A program made the position numbers and the translations under genes. Source: Cryobacterium tepidiphilum (GTDB taxonomy: Bacteria > Actinomycetota > Actinomycetes > Actinomycetales > Microbacteriaceae). Taken from it: a stretch of 64,000 nt of DNA. The notes beneath the pieces are model-generated. The model was not told the origin of the DNA, ran no database searches, and worked only from the letters and a program-made list of their open reading frames with translations. Where the stretch lies: positions 1 through 64,000 of the forward strand of contig NZ_RDSR01000011.1 in assembly GCF_003716325.1 (NCBI RefSeq), given 5' to 3'. Positions 16,335-22,370 of this stretch are shown here, piece after piece; position 1 is the stretch's first letter, and each line of letters begins with the position of its first letter.

Positions 16335-18416
16335 CTACACGTCGATGCGGTCCCGGCCGAGCTTGTCGGAGCTTTCGATGAGGAATTCCTTGCGCGGCGC
16401 CACGTCGTTGCCCATCAGGAGTTCGAAGACCTTGCCGGCCATCTCGGCGTCCGGTACCTGCACCCGGCGGAGCGTCCGATGCGACCGGTCCATGGTCGTG
16501 AGCGCCAACTGGTCGGCGTCCATCTCCCCGAGTCCCTTGTAGCGCTGGATCGGGTCCTGGTAGCGCTTGCCGGTTCGCTTCAGCCCGGCGAGGACGCCCT
16601 GCAGTTCGGCCTCCGAGTAGGTGTAGATGGTCTCGTTCGGCTTGCTGCCGGGATTCATCACGACCACCCGGTGCAGCGGGGGCACGGCCGCGAACACCCG
16701 GCCCTCCTCGATCATGGGCCGCATGTACCGGAAGAACAGCGTCAGCAGCAGGGTGCGGATGTGCGCGCCGTCGACGTCGGCGTCGCTCATGATGATCACC
16801 TTGCCGTAGCGGGCCGCCGACAGGTCGAAGCTGCGGCCGGAGCCGGCTCCGATGACCTGGATGATCGACGCGCACTCCGCGTTCGAGAGCATGTCCGAGA
16901 CGGATGCCTTCTGCACGTTGAGGATCTTGCCGCGGATGGGCAGCAGCGCCTGGTGCTCGCTGTCGCGGGCGAGCTTGGCCGTTCCGAGCGCCGAGTCGCC
17001 CTCAACGATGAAGAGTTCACTCAGTGCCACGTCGCTGCTGCGGCAGTCGACGAGCTTCGCCGGGAGTGAGGAGCTCTCCAGTGCGTTCTTGCGCCGCTGG
17101 GTCTCCTTGTGCGCCCGCGCCGAGATGCGGGACTTCATCTCCGCGACGACCTTGTCGAGAAGGAGCGCGGTCTGCGCCTTGTCGTCGCGCTTCGTCGACG
17201 CGAACCGCTCCTTGAGCGCCTTCGAGACGACCGAGGTGACGATGGCGCGCACGGCCGGCGTGCCCAGGATCTCCTTCGTCTGCCCCTCGAACTGCGGCTC
17301 AGGAAGGCGCACGGTGATCACGGCGGTGAGACCGGCGAAGATGTCGTCCTTCTCGAGTTTGTCGCTGCCGGCCTTCAGGCGCCGTGCGTTCTGCTCCACC
17401 TGCGACCGCAGCACCTTCACCAGTCCCTGGTCGAAACCGGCCTGGTGCGTGCCGCCCTTCGGCGTGGCGATGATGTTGACGAAGCTGCGGGTCACGGTCT
17501 CGTACCCGGTGCCCCAGCGGAGGGCGACGTCCACCTGGCACTCACGCTCGAGTTCGGTGGCGACCATGGCGCCCGTCGGCGAGAGCACCGGCACGGTCTC
17601 GCTGAATGTCCCCGTGCCGGTGAGGCGCCAGGTGTCGGTGATCGCCGCGTCTCCCGCGAGATGGTCCACGAATTCCGAGATGCCGCCCTCGAACGAGAAC
17701 GTCTCCTGCAGCGGCTCCTCCCCGCGCTCGTCGTCGATGCTGATCGACAGGCCAGGCACCAGGAACGCGGTCTGGCGGGCGCGGGAGAGCAGGTCGTCCA
17801 CCTGGAAGGCTGTGCCGCGGGTGAAGATCTGCCGGTCGGCCCAGTAACGGATGCGGGTGCCGGTGACGCCCTTGGCGACCTTGCCCACCACGCGCAGTTC
17901 GCTCTGGTTCTCGAACGGAGTGAACGGGGAGTCGGGGCTCTTCCGCCCGTCCGCGTCGGCGAAGATGCCCGGCTCGCCGCGGTGGAAGGACATGGCCCAG
18001 GTCTTGCCGCCCCGGTCCACCTCGACATCGAGGCGCTCCGAGAGGGCGTTAACGACGGACGCGCCCACGCCGTGCAGGCCGCCGGAGGCAGCGTACGATC
18101 CCCCGCCGAACTTCCCGCCGGCGTGCAGCTTGGTGAAGACGACCTCCACACCGGAGAGGCCGGTCTTGGGTTCGATGTCGACAGGGATGCCACGGGCCGA
18201 GTCGCGCACCTCCACGCTGTCGTCGGGGTGCAGCACGATGTCGATCCGCTCGCCATGGCCGCCGAGCGCCTCGTCGACGGAGTTGTCGATGATCTCCCAG
18301 AGGCAGTGCATGAGGCCCCGGGAGTCGGTCGAGCCGATGTACATTCCCGGTCGCTTGCGGACGGCCTCGAGGCCCTCCAGGACCGACAGGTGGCGCGCGG
18401 AATAGTCAGAACTCAC
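16335..18416 (-). CDS. parE: DNA topoisomerase IV / gyrase, subunit B type
   Basis: 693 residues. GHKL ATPase domain (KRPGMYIGSTDSRGLMHCLW, EIIDNSVDEAL, GGLHGVGASVVNALS), transducer, then the TOPRIM domain with the EGDSALGTAKLARD motif and IIMSDADVDGAHIRTLLLT carrying the acidic metal ligands, and the C-terminal IQRYKGLGEMDADQL. It drives strand passage by ATP hydrolysis with the subunit A protein. The GTG at 18416 gives the N-terminus SSDYSARHLSVLEG typical of homologues; a TAACCT lies 8 nt upstream. Confidence 0.92.
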   Translation of the reverse strand: MSSDYSARHLSVLEGLEAVRKRPGMYIGSTDSRGLMHCLWEIIDNSVDEALGGHGERIDIVLHPDDSVEVRDSARGIPVDIEPKTGLSGVEVVFTKLHAGGKFGGGSYAASGGLHGVGASVVNALSERLDVEVDRGGKTWAMSFHRGEPGIFADADGRKSPDSPFTPFENQSELRVVGKVAKGVTGTRIRYWADRQIFTRGTAFQVDDLLSRARQTAFLVPGLSISIDDERGEEPLQETFSFEGGISEFVDHLAGDAAITDTWRLTGTGTFSETVPVLSPTGAMVATELERECQVDVALRWGTGYETVTRSFVNIIATPKGGTHQAGFDQGLVKVLRSQVEQNARRLKAGSDKLEKDDIFAGLTAVITVRLPEPQFEGQTKEILGTPAVRAIVTSVVSKALKERFASTKRDDKAQTALLLDKVVAEMKSRISARAHKETQRRKNALESSSLPAKLVDCRSSDVALSELFIVEGDSALGTAKLARDSEHQALLPIRGKILNVQKASVSDMLSNAECASIIQVIGAGSGRSFDLSAARYGKVIIMSDADVDGAHIRTLLLTLFFRYMRPMIEEGRVFAAVPPLHRVVVMNPGSKPNETIYTYSEAELQGVLAGLKRTGKRYQDPIQRYKGLGEMDADQLALTTMDRSHRTLRRVQVPDAEMAGKVFELLMGNDVAPRKEFLIESSDKLGRDRIDV

Positions 18417-18424
18417 AACAGCCA

Positions 18425-18430
18425 AGGTTA
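18425..18430 (-). promoter_or_regulatory. -10 box of parE (leaderless)
   Basis: TAACCT on the minus strand, 8 nt before the GTG start and without any ribosome binding site between. Confidence 0.4.
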
Positions 18431-18575
18431 CTAAGCCGTTGGGCTCCGCCCTGACCGACACCCGGCGGCGCCCTACGCGTACAGCGAAATACCGGGCCCA
18501 GCGGTCGCTATGTCACCGGAAGCGTGTTTACATTGTGGAGCAAGCAGTACAGGAAGAATTCTGGAGGAGGAGCAC

Positions 18576-18824
18576 ATGTCCCAGCTCAATGCCCATCAGG
18601 GTGCTGTCGACGCACTCGGCACCGCCGAAATCGACTCCCCCCAGCTCACCGCCGCCGACCGCTGTGACGCCTGCGGCGCGCAGGCGTACATCCGTGTCGT
18701 CGTGAACAACAGCGAATTGCTCTTCTGCGCCCACCACGGTCGCAAGCACCAGGAGAAATTGGCCGCCATCGCACAGAGCTGGCATGACGAATCCGCTCGC
18801 CTGTTCGAGGAACAGCGGGCCTGA
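18576..18824 (+). CDS. DUF7455-type small zinc-finger-like protein
   Basis: 82 residues. Core motif DRCDACGAQAYIRVVV followed by LLFCAHHGRKHQEKL: a CxxC plus CxHH arrangement that could bind one zinc ion. This small family is found next to or near primary sigma factor genes in many actinobacteria; its function is not established. A strong GGAGGAGG precedes ATG 18576, ruling out the upstream in-frame ATG at 18510. It converges on gatD. Confidence 0.85.
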   Translation: MSQLNAHQGAVDALGTAEIDSPQLTAADRCDACGAQAYIRVVVNNSELLFCAHHGRKHQEKLAAIAQSWHDESARLFEEQRA

Positions 18825-18851: not shown

Positions 18852-19580
18852 TTACTCGGCAGGGAGCTTGAGCCGCACGGCAACCTGGTTGCGTGCGGCT
18901 CTCGCTGTTTCATCGACCGCGTCGGATCGTGCGCCGGGAACGTAGTCGGAGCCGCGGCGGGCCAGCGCGAGCCGGAGCAGGTGATCTGCCAGGCCGGGGT
19001 TCCGTGCCAGCACCGGTCCGTGCAGATGCGTTCCGAACACGTCGCCCATGACGAGGCCCTCCTGGCCGTTCCCGTTGCCGGTGCCGGCGAGCACCCGGCC
19101 CAGGGGTGAGCCTTCCGCCCCGACGTAGTGGCGGGAGTGGTTCTCGAACCCGATCAGTCGGCCGTACTTCGACTTCACGGCGAGGTCGTCGGCGATGCGC
19201 GCGGGGGCGGGAACGGCCCGGCCGGCGACCAGCCCGATCCCCTCGACGACACTCCCGTCGGCGAGGTCGATGCCGACGCCCAGGAGTTCCCAGCCGGTTC
19301 CGACGGCCAGCAGCGGGACGCCCGCCGTGACCAGTTCGCGCAGCCGGTCGGCCATGGGCAGCAGGGCCGCACGGGCGGCCGGGAGGGCCGCGTCGCTGCC
19401 CGAGCCGATCACGATGATGTCGGCCGACGCCGGGAGGGCGTCCCCCGGCGCGACGTCGAGGACGACCGCGTCGAACCCGGCCCACCGGGCGCGCTGGGCG
19501 AGGACCCTGGCGTTCGCGGCGTCGCCGTTGGTGTCCTGGAGGCCTGGCAGCAGGGAGACGATGGTCAGTGTGTCGGTCAC
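18852..19580 (-). CDS. gatD: GatD-like glutamine amidotransferase homologue lacking the catalytic cysteine
   Basis: 242 residues of the CobB/CobQ-type class I amidotransferase fold, matching GatD, partner of MurT in amidating the alpha-carboxyl of D-Glu in lipid II. The nucleophile elbow reads LLAVGTGWELLGVGID, where active GatD has a V-C-G-G-Y-Q-L-L-G-type sequence: residue 94, the catalytic Cys, is Gly (codon GGA), and the protein contains no cysteine at all. The substrate-side IGFENHSRHYVG and the His in GTHLHGPVL (near residue 187) are kept. The GTG start overlaps the murT stop (GTGA). A glutaminase activity is therefore not expected; a binding or scaffolding role is inferred. Confidence 0.88.
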   Translation of the reverse strand: MTDTLTIVSLLPGLQDTNGDAANARVLAQRARWAGFDAVVLDVAPGDALPASADIIVIGSGSDAALPAARAALLPMADRLRELVTAGVPLLAVGTGWELLGVGIDLADGSVVEGIGLVAGRAVPAPARIADDLAVKSKYGRLIGFENHSRHYVGAEGSPLGRVLAGTGNGNGQEGLVMGDVFGTHLHGPVLARNPGLADHLLRLALARRGSDYVPGARSDAVDETARAARNQVAVRLKLPAE

Positions 19581-20845
19581 GCCGGCTCCTCGATGTTGCT
19601 GGTCAGGCCCAGGTGCGCCCGCGTGCGGCGCATGGAGTCGGCCGAGAAGACGATGGTCTTGAGGCCCGTGGCCGGGTCGGGAAGTGCCAGGAAGTCGTCG
19701 AGTGCGCGGCCGAGGTCGGGCTCCACGCGCTCCACGTCGACGTCGTCGTAGGCGAGCTGCAGGGCGATGTCGTGGGCCTTGGATCCGGATGCGATGAGCA
19801 CCCGCCCCAGGCGTGACGTGTCGACCGGCCAGAAGTAGGAGGGATCCCGGACGTCGGAGCCGAGCGCCACGAGCAGCTGCTCGGTGTGCGCGTCGAGGCT
19901 GTCGAGGTTGAGCTGGAAGCTCGCCGGGTTCTGCACGAGCACGAATTCGACGGTGCGACCCCGCACGGTGACGATCTCGCCCCGGCCGAACACCGGGGGA
20001 ATGCGGGAGACGGCGTCGGCGGCGACGGATACGTCGAACTCCTCCCCCAGCACCGCCCGCGCGGTCGCCAGGGCCGCCACGGCGTCCACCGCGTAGTGCA
20101 CGCCACGAGCCGGCAGGGCCACCTCGTGCGCGGCTCCGTCGAGGCTCACGGTCGCCTCACGTCCGTCGACGCGGGTGAGCACGACGCCGTCGCCCGGCGT
20201 CAGCCGGGCGGGGGCGGTGCGGGAATACCCAAGGCCCCGCGGGGACCCGGCGAGGACGTCGGCGGACACACCGAAGCGCTCGACGCGCGCGTGCCCGGCA
20301 AGGCCTGCGGCGACCCCGTTCAGGTAGTCGTCATCCGCGTTGATCACCACGGCATCCGTCGCCCGGTTCGCGATCTTCGCGAGCATCGCCGCGACCATCT
20401 CCGAGTCGTGGAACCGGTCGATCTGGTCGACCATCACGTTCGTGAGGGTGACGACGCTGGGAGTGAGGCGCGCGGAGATCAGCGCCCCGTGCCCCTCGTC
20501 CATCTCGAGCACGGCGATGTCGCCGTGGATGCGCCCGGCCAGGCTCACCCGTTCCAGGAGCGCGGATGTGAGTCCCTGGCTGATATTGGCCGTCGACTCG
20601 TTCGTGAAGACCTGCTTGCCGCTCGCGCGCAGCGCGGCGACGAGCATCTTCGTCGTCGTCGACTTGCCGCTCGAGCCGCTCACGATCACGAGCCCGCCGG
20701 GGAACCCGTTGAGGGTGTGCGCGAGGAAGCCCGGCGCAATCCGGTTGACGACGAGACCGGGAACGGCGGACCCGCCGCCGGGCTTCCGCCAGCGCGCAAG
20801 TCTCCTGACGATCCTGCCGATGAGGATCGCCGGCATGTAGCGCAC
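19577..20845 (-). CDS. murT: MurT-like Mur ligase homologue without the zinc ribbon
   Basis: 422 residues of a Mur-ligase-type ATP enzyme. P-loop GSSGKSTTTK (57-66), the acidic ALISARLTPSVVTLTNVMVDQ stretch split by DEGHG upstream, and the NPASFQLNL motif in the C-terminal domain place it with MurT, which activates the D-Glu alpha-carboxyl of lipid II. Differences from canonical MurT: no cysteine anywhere, so the Cys4 zinc ribbon of the central domain is absent, and the C-terminal WIWD sequence reads YFWPVD, putting Pro (residue 340) at the Asp that aligns with the GatD triad partner. It follows sigA by 9 bp and overlaps gatD. Confidence 0.88.
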   Translation of the reverse strand: MRYMPAILIGRIVRRLARWRKPGGGSAVPGLVVNRIAPGFLAHTLNGFPGGLVIVSGSSGKSTTTKMLVAALRASGKQVFTNESTANISQGLTSALLERVSLAGRIHGDIAVLEMDEGHGALISARLTPSVVTLTNVMVDQIDRFHDSEMVAAMLAKIANRATDAVVINADDDYLNGVAAGLAGHARVERFGVSADVLAGSPRGLGYSRTAPARLTPGDGVVLTRVDGREATVSLDGAAHEVALPARGVHYAVDAVAALATARAVLGEEFDVSVAADAVSRIPPVFGRGEIVTVRGRTVEFVLVQNPASFQLNLDSLDAHTEQLLVALGSDVRDPSYFWPVDTSRLGRVLIASGSKAHDIALQLAYDDVDVERVEPDLGRALDDFLALPDPATGLKTIVFSADSMRRTRAHLGLTSNIEEPA

Positions 20846-20854
20846 GCGCGCCCC

Positions 20855-22153
20855 TTACTCGAGGTAGTCGCGCAGCGACTGGGACCGCGACGGATGCCGC
20901 AGCTTGGCCATCGTCTTCGACTCGATCTGGCGGATGCGTTCGCGGGTCACCCCGAACGTGTCACCGATCTGGTCGAGGGTCTTCGGCATGCCGTCCCCGA
21001 GCCCGAACCGCATCCGGATCACGCCCGCCTCCCGCTCGGAGAGCGAGTCGAGCAGGCTCTCCAGCTGCTTCTGCAGCATGGTGAAGCCCACGGCATCGGC
21101 GGGGACGACGGCTTCGGTGTCCTCGATGAGGTCGCCGAATTCGCTGTCGCCGTCTTCACCGAGCGGGGTGTGCAGGGAGATCGGCTCGCGGCCGTACTTC
21201 TGCACCTCGACGACCTTCTCTGGCGTCATGTCGAGTTCGCGCGAGAGCTCCTCGGGCGTGGGCTCGCGCCCCAGGTCCTGCAGCATCTGCCGCTGCACGC
21301 GGGCGAGCTTGTTGATGACCTCCACCATGTGCACGGGGATGCGGATGGTGCGGGCCTGGTCAGCCATGGCGCGGGTGATGGCCTGGCGGATCCACCAGGT
21401 GGCGTACGTCGAGAACTTGAAGCCCTTGGTGTAGTCGAACTTCTCGACGGCACGGATGAGCCCCAGGTTGCCTTCCTGGATCAGGTCGAGGAACTGCATG
21501 CCGCGACCGGTGTAGCGCTTGGCGAGGGAGACGACGAGACGGAGGTTCGCGCCCAGCAGGTGGCTCTTCGCCCGGGCGCCGTCCTTGGCGACCCACTGCA
21601 GTTCACGCCCGAGGGCGCTGCGCTTCTCGGCATCCGTCATGTGCGACAGCTTGTCTTCGGCGAACAGGCCCGCCTCGATGCGCATCGCCAGCTCGACCTC
21701 TTCGGCCGCGTTGAGGAGCGCGACCTTTCCGATCTGCTTCAGGTAGTCCTTCACCGGGTCGGCGGTGGCGCCCGTGATGGCCGTGGAGTAGACGGGGACC
21801 TCGTCGTCGTCGTCGACGAGCGACAGGACGAGTGCACCGGTGGGCAACGGCTCCACCGTCTCGGTGCTCTTGCCGTTCTCCTCCTCGGTCTCCTCCTCGT
21901 CGGTGGACTGGTCGTGCTTGTCCAGGTCGGCGGCGACCTCTTCGGTCTCGTCGACCGTTTCGTCGTCGTGCTCGTCGTCGGCCTTCGATTTCGACGCGGC
22001 GCGCTTGCGGGTCGCCGGCTTCTCAGCGGCAGCCTTCTTCTTCGCGGGCGTCTTCTTCGCCGCGGTCTTCGCCGGAGTCTTCTTCGCCGCCGGCTTGCTC
22101 TCGGTCACGTCGTCGGTGGTCTGCTCGGTCGCCTCTGATTTTGCGGTTGCCAT
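20855..22153 (-). CDS. sigA: Primary RNA polymerase sigma factor (SigA/HrdB/RpoD)
   Basis: 432 residues. The first 110 are a low-complexity Ala/Lys/Pro then Asp/Glu-rich region, as in other actinobacterial primary sigma factors. Region 1.2 ([16 protein letters not shown]), region 2 ([20 protein letters not shown] and [16 protein letters not shown]), region 3 and region 4 ([19 protein letters not shown]) are complete. ATG at 22153 has AGAGGTG upstream; the ATGs further up are not supported. It directs housekeeping transcription, including the TAnnnT promoters seen in this window. It appears to head an operon with murT and gatD. Confidence 0.97.
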
Positions 22154-22370
22154 TCGAACACCTCTCATGCAATCGTTGTGCGCGGGCAGCGCTCCCAAAC
22201 GCTCGGGACTTTCCCGCGGTCACAGAGGGCTGGAACGGTCATTTGGGCAGTACTAAGACCCATGTCAAGTCCTGGATCCGCCAGGGGCGGAACCACGACC
22301 AGAACGGGTCTTGGAGTCAATTATTGCACGGTTTGCCCTGTGGGCGAGCCAGTGCGGGCACAGCGCCGGG

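Follow-up and report, generated by a model that had tools for sequence, protein, structure and literature searches.

A cysteine-less MurT/GatD pair behind sigA in Microbacteriaceae as the probable ligase of the D-Glu bridge in group-B murein

The known target of MurT is the α-carboxyl of D-Glu, the residue that carries glycine in murein of the Micrococcus type; murein of group B has long been in taxonomic use. The locus described here raises the question of what a MurT/GatD pair does when the catalytic cysteine of GatD has gone. Microbacteriaceae are described as group B (PMC10978784), and in C. michiganensis the group-B bridges leave from D-Glu (PMC9603630). Searches of open-licence papers found no enzyme described for this hallmark D-Glu bridge bond. 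The murTgatD genes have been called universal in Actinobacteria, with a Cys tetrad in some (PMC6085368); the part of that paper available to us says nothing of GatD having lost its Cys. The pair is probably a glutaminase-less derivative of MurT/GatD that ligates the first bridge amino acid onto the D-Glu α-carboxyl.

The window, by which we mean the whole 64,000-nucleotide stretch of Cryobacterium tepidiphilum DNA that was analyzed, encodes the pair on the minus strand. The MurT-like Mur ligase (19577..20845, minus strand; 422 amino acids, GTG start) matched the Pfam families Mur_ligase_M (E 1.6e-15) and MurT_C (31.8 bits, cut-off 25) and a PDB MurT chain (E 7e-20). The GatD-like protein, of the class-I amidotransferase fold (18852..19580, minus strand; 242 amino acids), matched GATase_3 (E 5.7e-16) and PDB GatD (E 3.7e-24). 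The two genes overlap by 4 bases, and murT lies 9 bases behind sigA. In the PDB alignment GatD codon 94 (GGA, Gly; 19299..19301, minus strand), within PLLAVGTGWELLG, occupies the position of the glutaminase nucleophile, which is Cys in GatD of S. aureus and S. pneumoniae, as the initial annotation had claimed. Its further claims, that neither protein contains a cysteine, that MurT has no zinc ribbon and that the P-loop, the NPASF motif and the GatD His are kept in overlapping genes, were also borne out: each protein has 0 Cys and no CxxC, the P-loop reads GSSGKSTT (MurT residues 57–64; 20654..20677, minus strand), NPASF lies at MurT position 306, and the counterpart of S. aureus H189 is present in GatD. 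Both members scored far under the cut-offs of the NCBIfam isoglutaminyl synthase equivalogs (83 of 800 and 76.4 of 400), and profile searches of the window's genome found no second canonical murT-gatD pair.

For the family, 149 genomes were drawn from group f1, which we read as GTDB Microbacteriaceae. The MurT profile matched 121 of them and G005 carried a further type, so that 122 had a pair and 27 did not; for these 27, absence comes from searches that scored a portion of the candidates from the first look, and an additional search backed it in 19. The GatD profile missed G011 and G087, yet MurT was found in them. The f1 loci at which murT and gatD were both read numbered 109; L105 and L106, which have no MurT, were set aside. 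The Cys at the GatD site was kept in 17/109 pairs and missing in 92/109, the latter being 81 vertical, 8 His-type, 2 Gly-type with a ribbon and 1 Asn-type. The vertical set comprises 82 loci, namely the 81 of the f1 reading and L159 from a draw on the order; among the 97 vertical-type genomes, 79 were read and 18 were typed by profile only. At the Cys site the vertical loci have Gly (58), Ala (16), Ser (4), Thr (2) or Asn (2), and Cys in 0/82. A Cys-bearing pair was present additionally in G050, G060 and G113. All 49 loci from the order draw that lie outside f1 had Cys, His and Asp. Cys-less pairs were found in at least four Clostridia MAGs among the matches listed, and plasmid searches found a Gly-type pair in Vescimonas. 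Erysipelotrichaceae were considered as an independent group-B test and rejected, because only Merdibacter was among the matches listed and Merdibacter bears the Cys. On a plasmid of Leifsonia shinshuensis, a member of a Microbacteriaceae genus, a Cys-bearing murT-gatD is followed by a gene for an M15 (VanY-like) peptidase (L227; NZ_CP043642.1, 2736-5685).

The triad Asp had been called lost in the initial annotation, on the strength of FWPVD in MurT, and this was wrong. In S. aureus MurT the triad Asp is D349 (PMC6113224). Counted along the PDB alignment, D349 in RD-TSW aligns with window D334 in RD-PSY (19844..19846, minus strand), and this Asp was kept at 82/82 vertical loci. The Pro of FWPVD (codon 340; 19826..19828, minus strand) sits by hand count at S. 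pneumoniae D361, which belongs to the gate on the side of GatD. A gate residue that had been missed, the conserved Arg135 of S. pneumoniae, is Val in the window (codon 139; 20429..20431, minus strand); the Arg was absent from 82/82 vertical pairs and present in 66/66 Cys-bearing ones. Nor were Cys, ribbon and Asp lost together, as had been claimed. Outside f1, both Cys knuckles of the ribbon were found in 9/49 Cys-bearing pairs and were missing or incomplete in 40/49; within f1, CxxC was absent from 14/17 Cys-bearing pairs. Because the ribbon is lacking in Cys-bearing relatives too and the Asp is kept, we rejected joint loss as an argument for a bridge ligase.

The ligase subunit was strongly conserved. 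Lys61 of the P-loop, Glu114, Asn136, Arg288 and Asn87 were all kept in 82/82 vertical MurT proteins; their S. pneumoniae counterparts are the P-loop Lys, Mg Glu110, Asn132, Arg304 and substrate Asn85 (PMC6085368). The P-loop Lys, Mg Glu, acceptor Asn and hinge Arg of a Mur-type ligase were thus present in every vertical MurT, and Asn87 corresponds to the acceptor-contacting N85. The exception was the pair Asn270 and Asn273, proposed adenine contacts of S. pneumoniae MurT (PMC6085368): the first was Tyr in 71/82 and the second Asp in 78/82 vertical proteins, and the window MurT has Tyr251 and Asp254. In vertical GatD the His was found in 54/82 and the middle Gly of the oxyanion site in 4/82. 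Across 13 vertical comparisons, in some of which dS exceeded 1, dN/dS was 0.04–0.21 for MurT and 0.06–0.28 for GatD; two Cys-bearing comparisons gave 0.03–0.18 and 0.05–0.34. Because Cys was found at none of the vertical loci and dN/dS was low, we conclude that loss of the Cys is not due to chance or error.

On a tree of 70 rows (Cys column left out, quick search, SH-aLRT support only) the Cys was lost twice. The vertical clade had a support of 100; a second Cys-less clade, with a support of 99, held the Clostridia pairs and the His-, Asn- and Gly-ribbon types. The same two clades were obtained with a 159-row FastTree. Cys-bearing pairs of the family fall among those of other families, as though they had been acquired. 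In pairs of the His type the gate Arg is retained (8/8), but neither the D349 counterpart nor the His of GatD is present, and the two Cys-less lineages therefore share no single signature.

The position of the pair was examined next to its anchors. Upstream lies a gene (20855..22198, minus strand) that we take, from its sequence, to be sigA. Downstream lie a small protein with Cys pairs (18510..18824, plus strand), which many relatives also carry next to the slot, and presumably a parE/gyrB-like type II topoisomerase B subunit (16335..18461, minus strand), an anchor shared with relatives. In the window the slot between these anchors holds the pair alone. At 29/30 vertical and His-type loci examined (3/3 and 18/19 vertical, 8/8 His-type) sigA was directly upstream of murT; it was so at 0/17 Cys-bearing loci, although L014, with just 209 bases of upstream sequence, is too short to judge. 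The 3/3 Asn- or Gly-ribbon loci and a second pair, L267, were not behind sigA. Two loci with Gly-type, ribbon-bearing MurT/GatD, L027 and L029, have a CofE-like gene directly upstream and are not behind sigA. The downstream anchors follow sigA immediately in the Cys-bearing genomes G012 and G014 and in G017 and G047, and the slot of G045 holds, by eye, transporter-like genes.

Other slot genes in relatives encode alanine-racemase-like and ATPgrasp_ST proteins. The slot of G053 contains a diaminobutyrate (Dab) transaminase that scored above its cut-offs (626 over 438; 603 over 552.2), and a transaminase 48% identical to it adjoins the Cys-less pair at 1/5 Clostridia loci. A diaminobutyrate-transaminase-like gene stands directly before a Cys-less murT-gatD in an Oscillospiraceae MAG (L163, 2407-5769). 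No Dab transaminase above cut-off was found in the window's genome, and a Dab bridge for the window's organism was accordingly not supported.

CofE proper attaches an amino acid through an amide bond. CofE-like matches with E below 1e-100, counted as strong, were found in 21/149 f1 genomes: 21/27 of those without the pair and 0/122 of those with it (Fisher p 1.5e-20, kinship ignored). Genera g7, g9, g54, g55, g71 and g77 hold both kinds. Weaker hits in G049 and G112, in both beside the Gly-ribbon pair, and in G134 were not counted as strong. A second draw gave 17 f1 genomes, of which 11 were new and 6 had been drawn before; 7 had CofE, 10 had the pair and 0 had both, a weak partial GatD-profile match in the CofE genome G238 being left uncounted. 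In 13/16 pair-less genomes whose slot was fetched, the CofE-like gene lay directly behind sigA; at 14 further CofE loci sigA was directly upstream in 13, and the remaining locus was cut by a contig end. The CofE-like protein of L231 matched Pfam F420_ligase (E 3.1e-13), and the slot CofE-like protein scored 34.9 bits against a cofE cut-off of 180.65. Plasmid searches found no CofE-like gene. Six f1 genomes (G017, G045, G047, G057, G108 and G110) had neither the pair nor a strong CofE-like hit. This exchange of genes in one slot suggests that the pair now attaches an amino acid of the cross-bridge.

Outside f1, CofE-like matches (E 1e-45 to 1e-59) occurred in 18 genomes, in frames of 809–1016 amino acids. 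The CofE-like part was C-terminal in the seven long frames read (L280–L286, from neighboring families), and AsnB-type domains were found in 3/4 long frames scanned. By motif, the amidotransferase Cys and the ATP motifs of these AsnB-CofE fusions were kept in 3/7 and gone from 4/7. The GatD profile matched 0/18 fusion genomes among its 83 non-f1 matches. Because some of these fusions from outside the family have kept their amidotransferase motifs intact, a CofE-like protein need not imply an amino acid as nucleophile.

FemABX proteins are likewise bridge builders, but they depend on tRNA and attach to the position-3 side chain. FemAB hits were found in 24/149 f1 genomes: 11/14 with a Cys-bearing pair only, 4/6 with neither system and 9/129 with a Cys-less pair or CofE. 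FemAB was thus inversely associated with the Cys-less pair or CofE (15/20 without them vs 9/129 with them; p 1.0e-10), and a hand count by genus gave 11/13 vs 8/67. No FemAB match was found in the window's genome.

Published murein types bear on these genomes at a few points. Rhodoluna lacicola has murein B2-β with the peptide D-Ala-D-Dab (PMC4156110). We read G009 as this species, and its GatD has Ala at the Cys site (L102); it is the one recognized group-B species with a Cys-less pair. Direct cross-links lacking a bridge were inferred from genes alone for Pontimonas salivibrio (PMC6106888), and G027, which we read as that species, has a Cys-less pair (L097). Amidated D-Glu is reported from the muropeptides of C. 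michiganensis (PMC9603630), an indication of some amidation there. The amidated D-Glu and the bridge-free proposal for Pontimonas count against a bridge ligase, as do the changed adenine-contacting Asn pair, the lack of one signature common to both Cys-less lineages, the Asn- and Gly-ribbon loci and L267 away from sigA, FemAB in 9 of the 129 genomes above, the six genomes with neither system and the AsnB-CofE fusions with intact motifs.

In the scheme that we favor, MurT would bind the lipid-linked stem peptide and, in the manner of Mur ligases, use ATP to activate the α-carboxyl of D-Glu-2. It would then couple to that carboxyl the amino group of the first interpeptide-bridge residue in place of ammonia. 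GatD, its ammonia supply gone, would be retained as a structural subunit on which MurT depends, and the product would be the substrate of group-B cross-linking. An enzyme that amidates D-Glu would thus have become a D-Glu bridge ligase through loss of its ammonia supply. In relatives the same step may be carried out by the second, independently glutaminase-dead MurT/GatD lineage common to Clostridia or, alternatively, by a stand-alone CofE-like ligase, with the replacements usually in place behind sigA. The initial annotation had proposed a MurT bridge ligase with a non-catalytic GatD. CofE exclusivity, the two Cys losses, the location of the vertical and His types behind sigA, the Dab and racemase genes in the slot, the FemAB contrast and the one group-B species speak for that idea; its arguments from the triad Asp and from joint ribbon loss fell away. 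Because a published murein type is at hand for one recognized genome with the pair and the support comes from sequences, the idea is upheld in part.

In S. aureus the C94G change in GatD abolished the use of glutamine and left ammonia-dependent activity at pH 8.5 unaffected, with GatD still required (PMC3266927), and this counts in favor of the scheme. A pair that goes on amidating D-Glu with free ammonia, or with ammonia from another glutaminase, would also fit the activity at pH 8.5, the invariant D349 counterpart and the amidated D-Glu of C. michiganensis. We consider this quite unlikely: at pH 7.5 ammonia was used by neither the wild type nor C94G (PMC3266927), the gate Arg is absent throughout the vertical set, and in group-B walls the D-Glu carboxyl is occupied by the bridge. 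Nor would amidation alone account for the FemAB contrast or for the presence of Dab and racemase genes in the slot.

The ATP-grasp proteins and racemases in some relatives' slots indicate that more than one ligation may be encoded there, and the pair might then add a later bridge residue or act on another carboxyl or wall polymer. This is unlikely, given the known target of MurT and the invariant acceptor contact at Asn87, and the pair stands alone in the window slot. It is very improbable that the pair is a pseudoenzyme, or a remnant in decay, whose role is regulatory or absent. The patchy GatD His, the nearly vanished middle Gly and the two genomes missed by the GatD profile would agree with decay; against it, the catalytic residues of MurT are invariant, dN/dS is low, and a CofE-like substitute is found in most genomes where the pair is absent. 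The pair is also retained in G013, which we read as T. whipplei Twist, a reduced genome (PMC9523146).

A wider proposal extends the bridge-ligase reading to the slot itself, and we put it forward tentatively, as slightly less probable than its negation. The sigA slot of Microbacteriaceae would house the missing D-Glu-α bridge ligases of group-B murein, derived from three isoglutamine-forming systems that turned into ligases by losing a glutaminase: vertical MurT/GatD; Clostridia-type MurT/GatD, which would have displaced the vertical pair in place; and CofE-like proteins with AsnB-fused relatives. On this view the AsnB-CofE fusions would represent another, hitherto unrecognized D-Glu amidating system.

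With the lipid II isoglutaminyl synthase MurT/GatD of S. aureus and S. pneumoniae the window pair shares fold families, gene order, overlap, P-loop, Mg Glu, substrate Asn and the MurT Asp that completes the triad; it differs in having no glutaminase Cys, no gate Arg and no ribbon, although the ribbon is not universal. With Mur ligases C–F it would share a reaction in which ATP drives the coupling of an amino acid to a wall-precursor carboxyl. Unlike them, it has no N-terminal UDP-binding domain and has a GatD-like partner, and its target would be the D-Glu α-carboxyl, probably at the lipid stage. Relatives of CofE (F420-0:L-glutamate ligase) occupy the same locus in related genomes and are proposed to catalyze the same reaction, but belong to a different protein family.

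If the proposal is correct, the pair would put a name to the enzyme of the hallmark bond of group-B murein and would show how an amidotransferase can become a peptide ligase through loss of the chemistry of one subunit. It would also allow murein group A or B to be predicted from genes, and the annotation of the pair as glutamine-dependent in Microbacteriaceae would be corrected.
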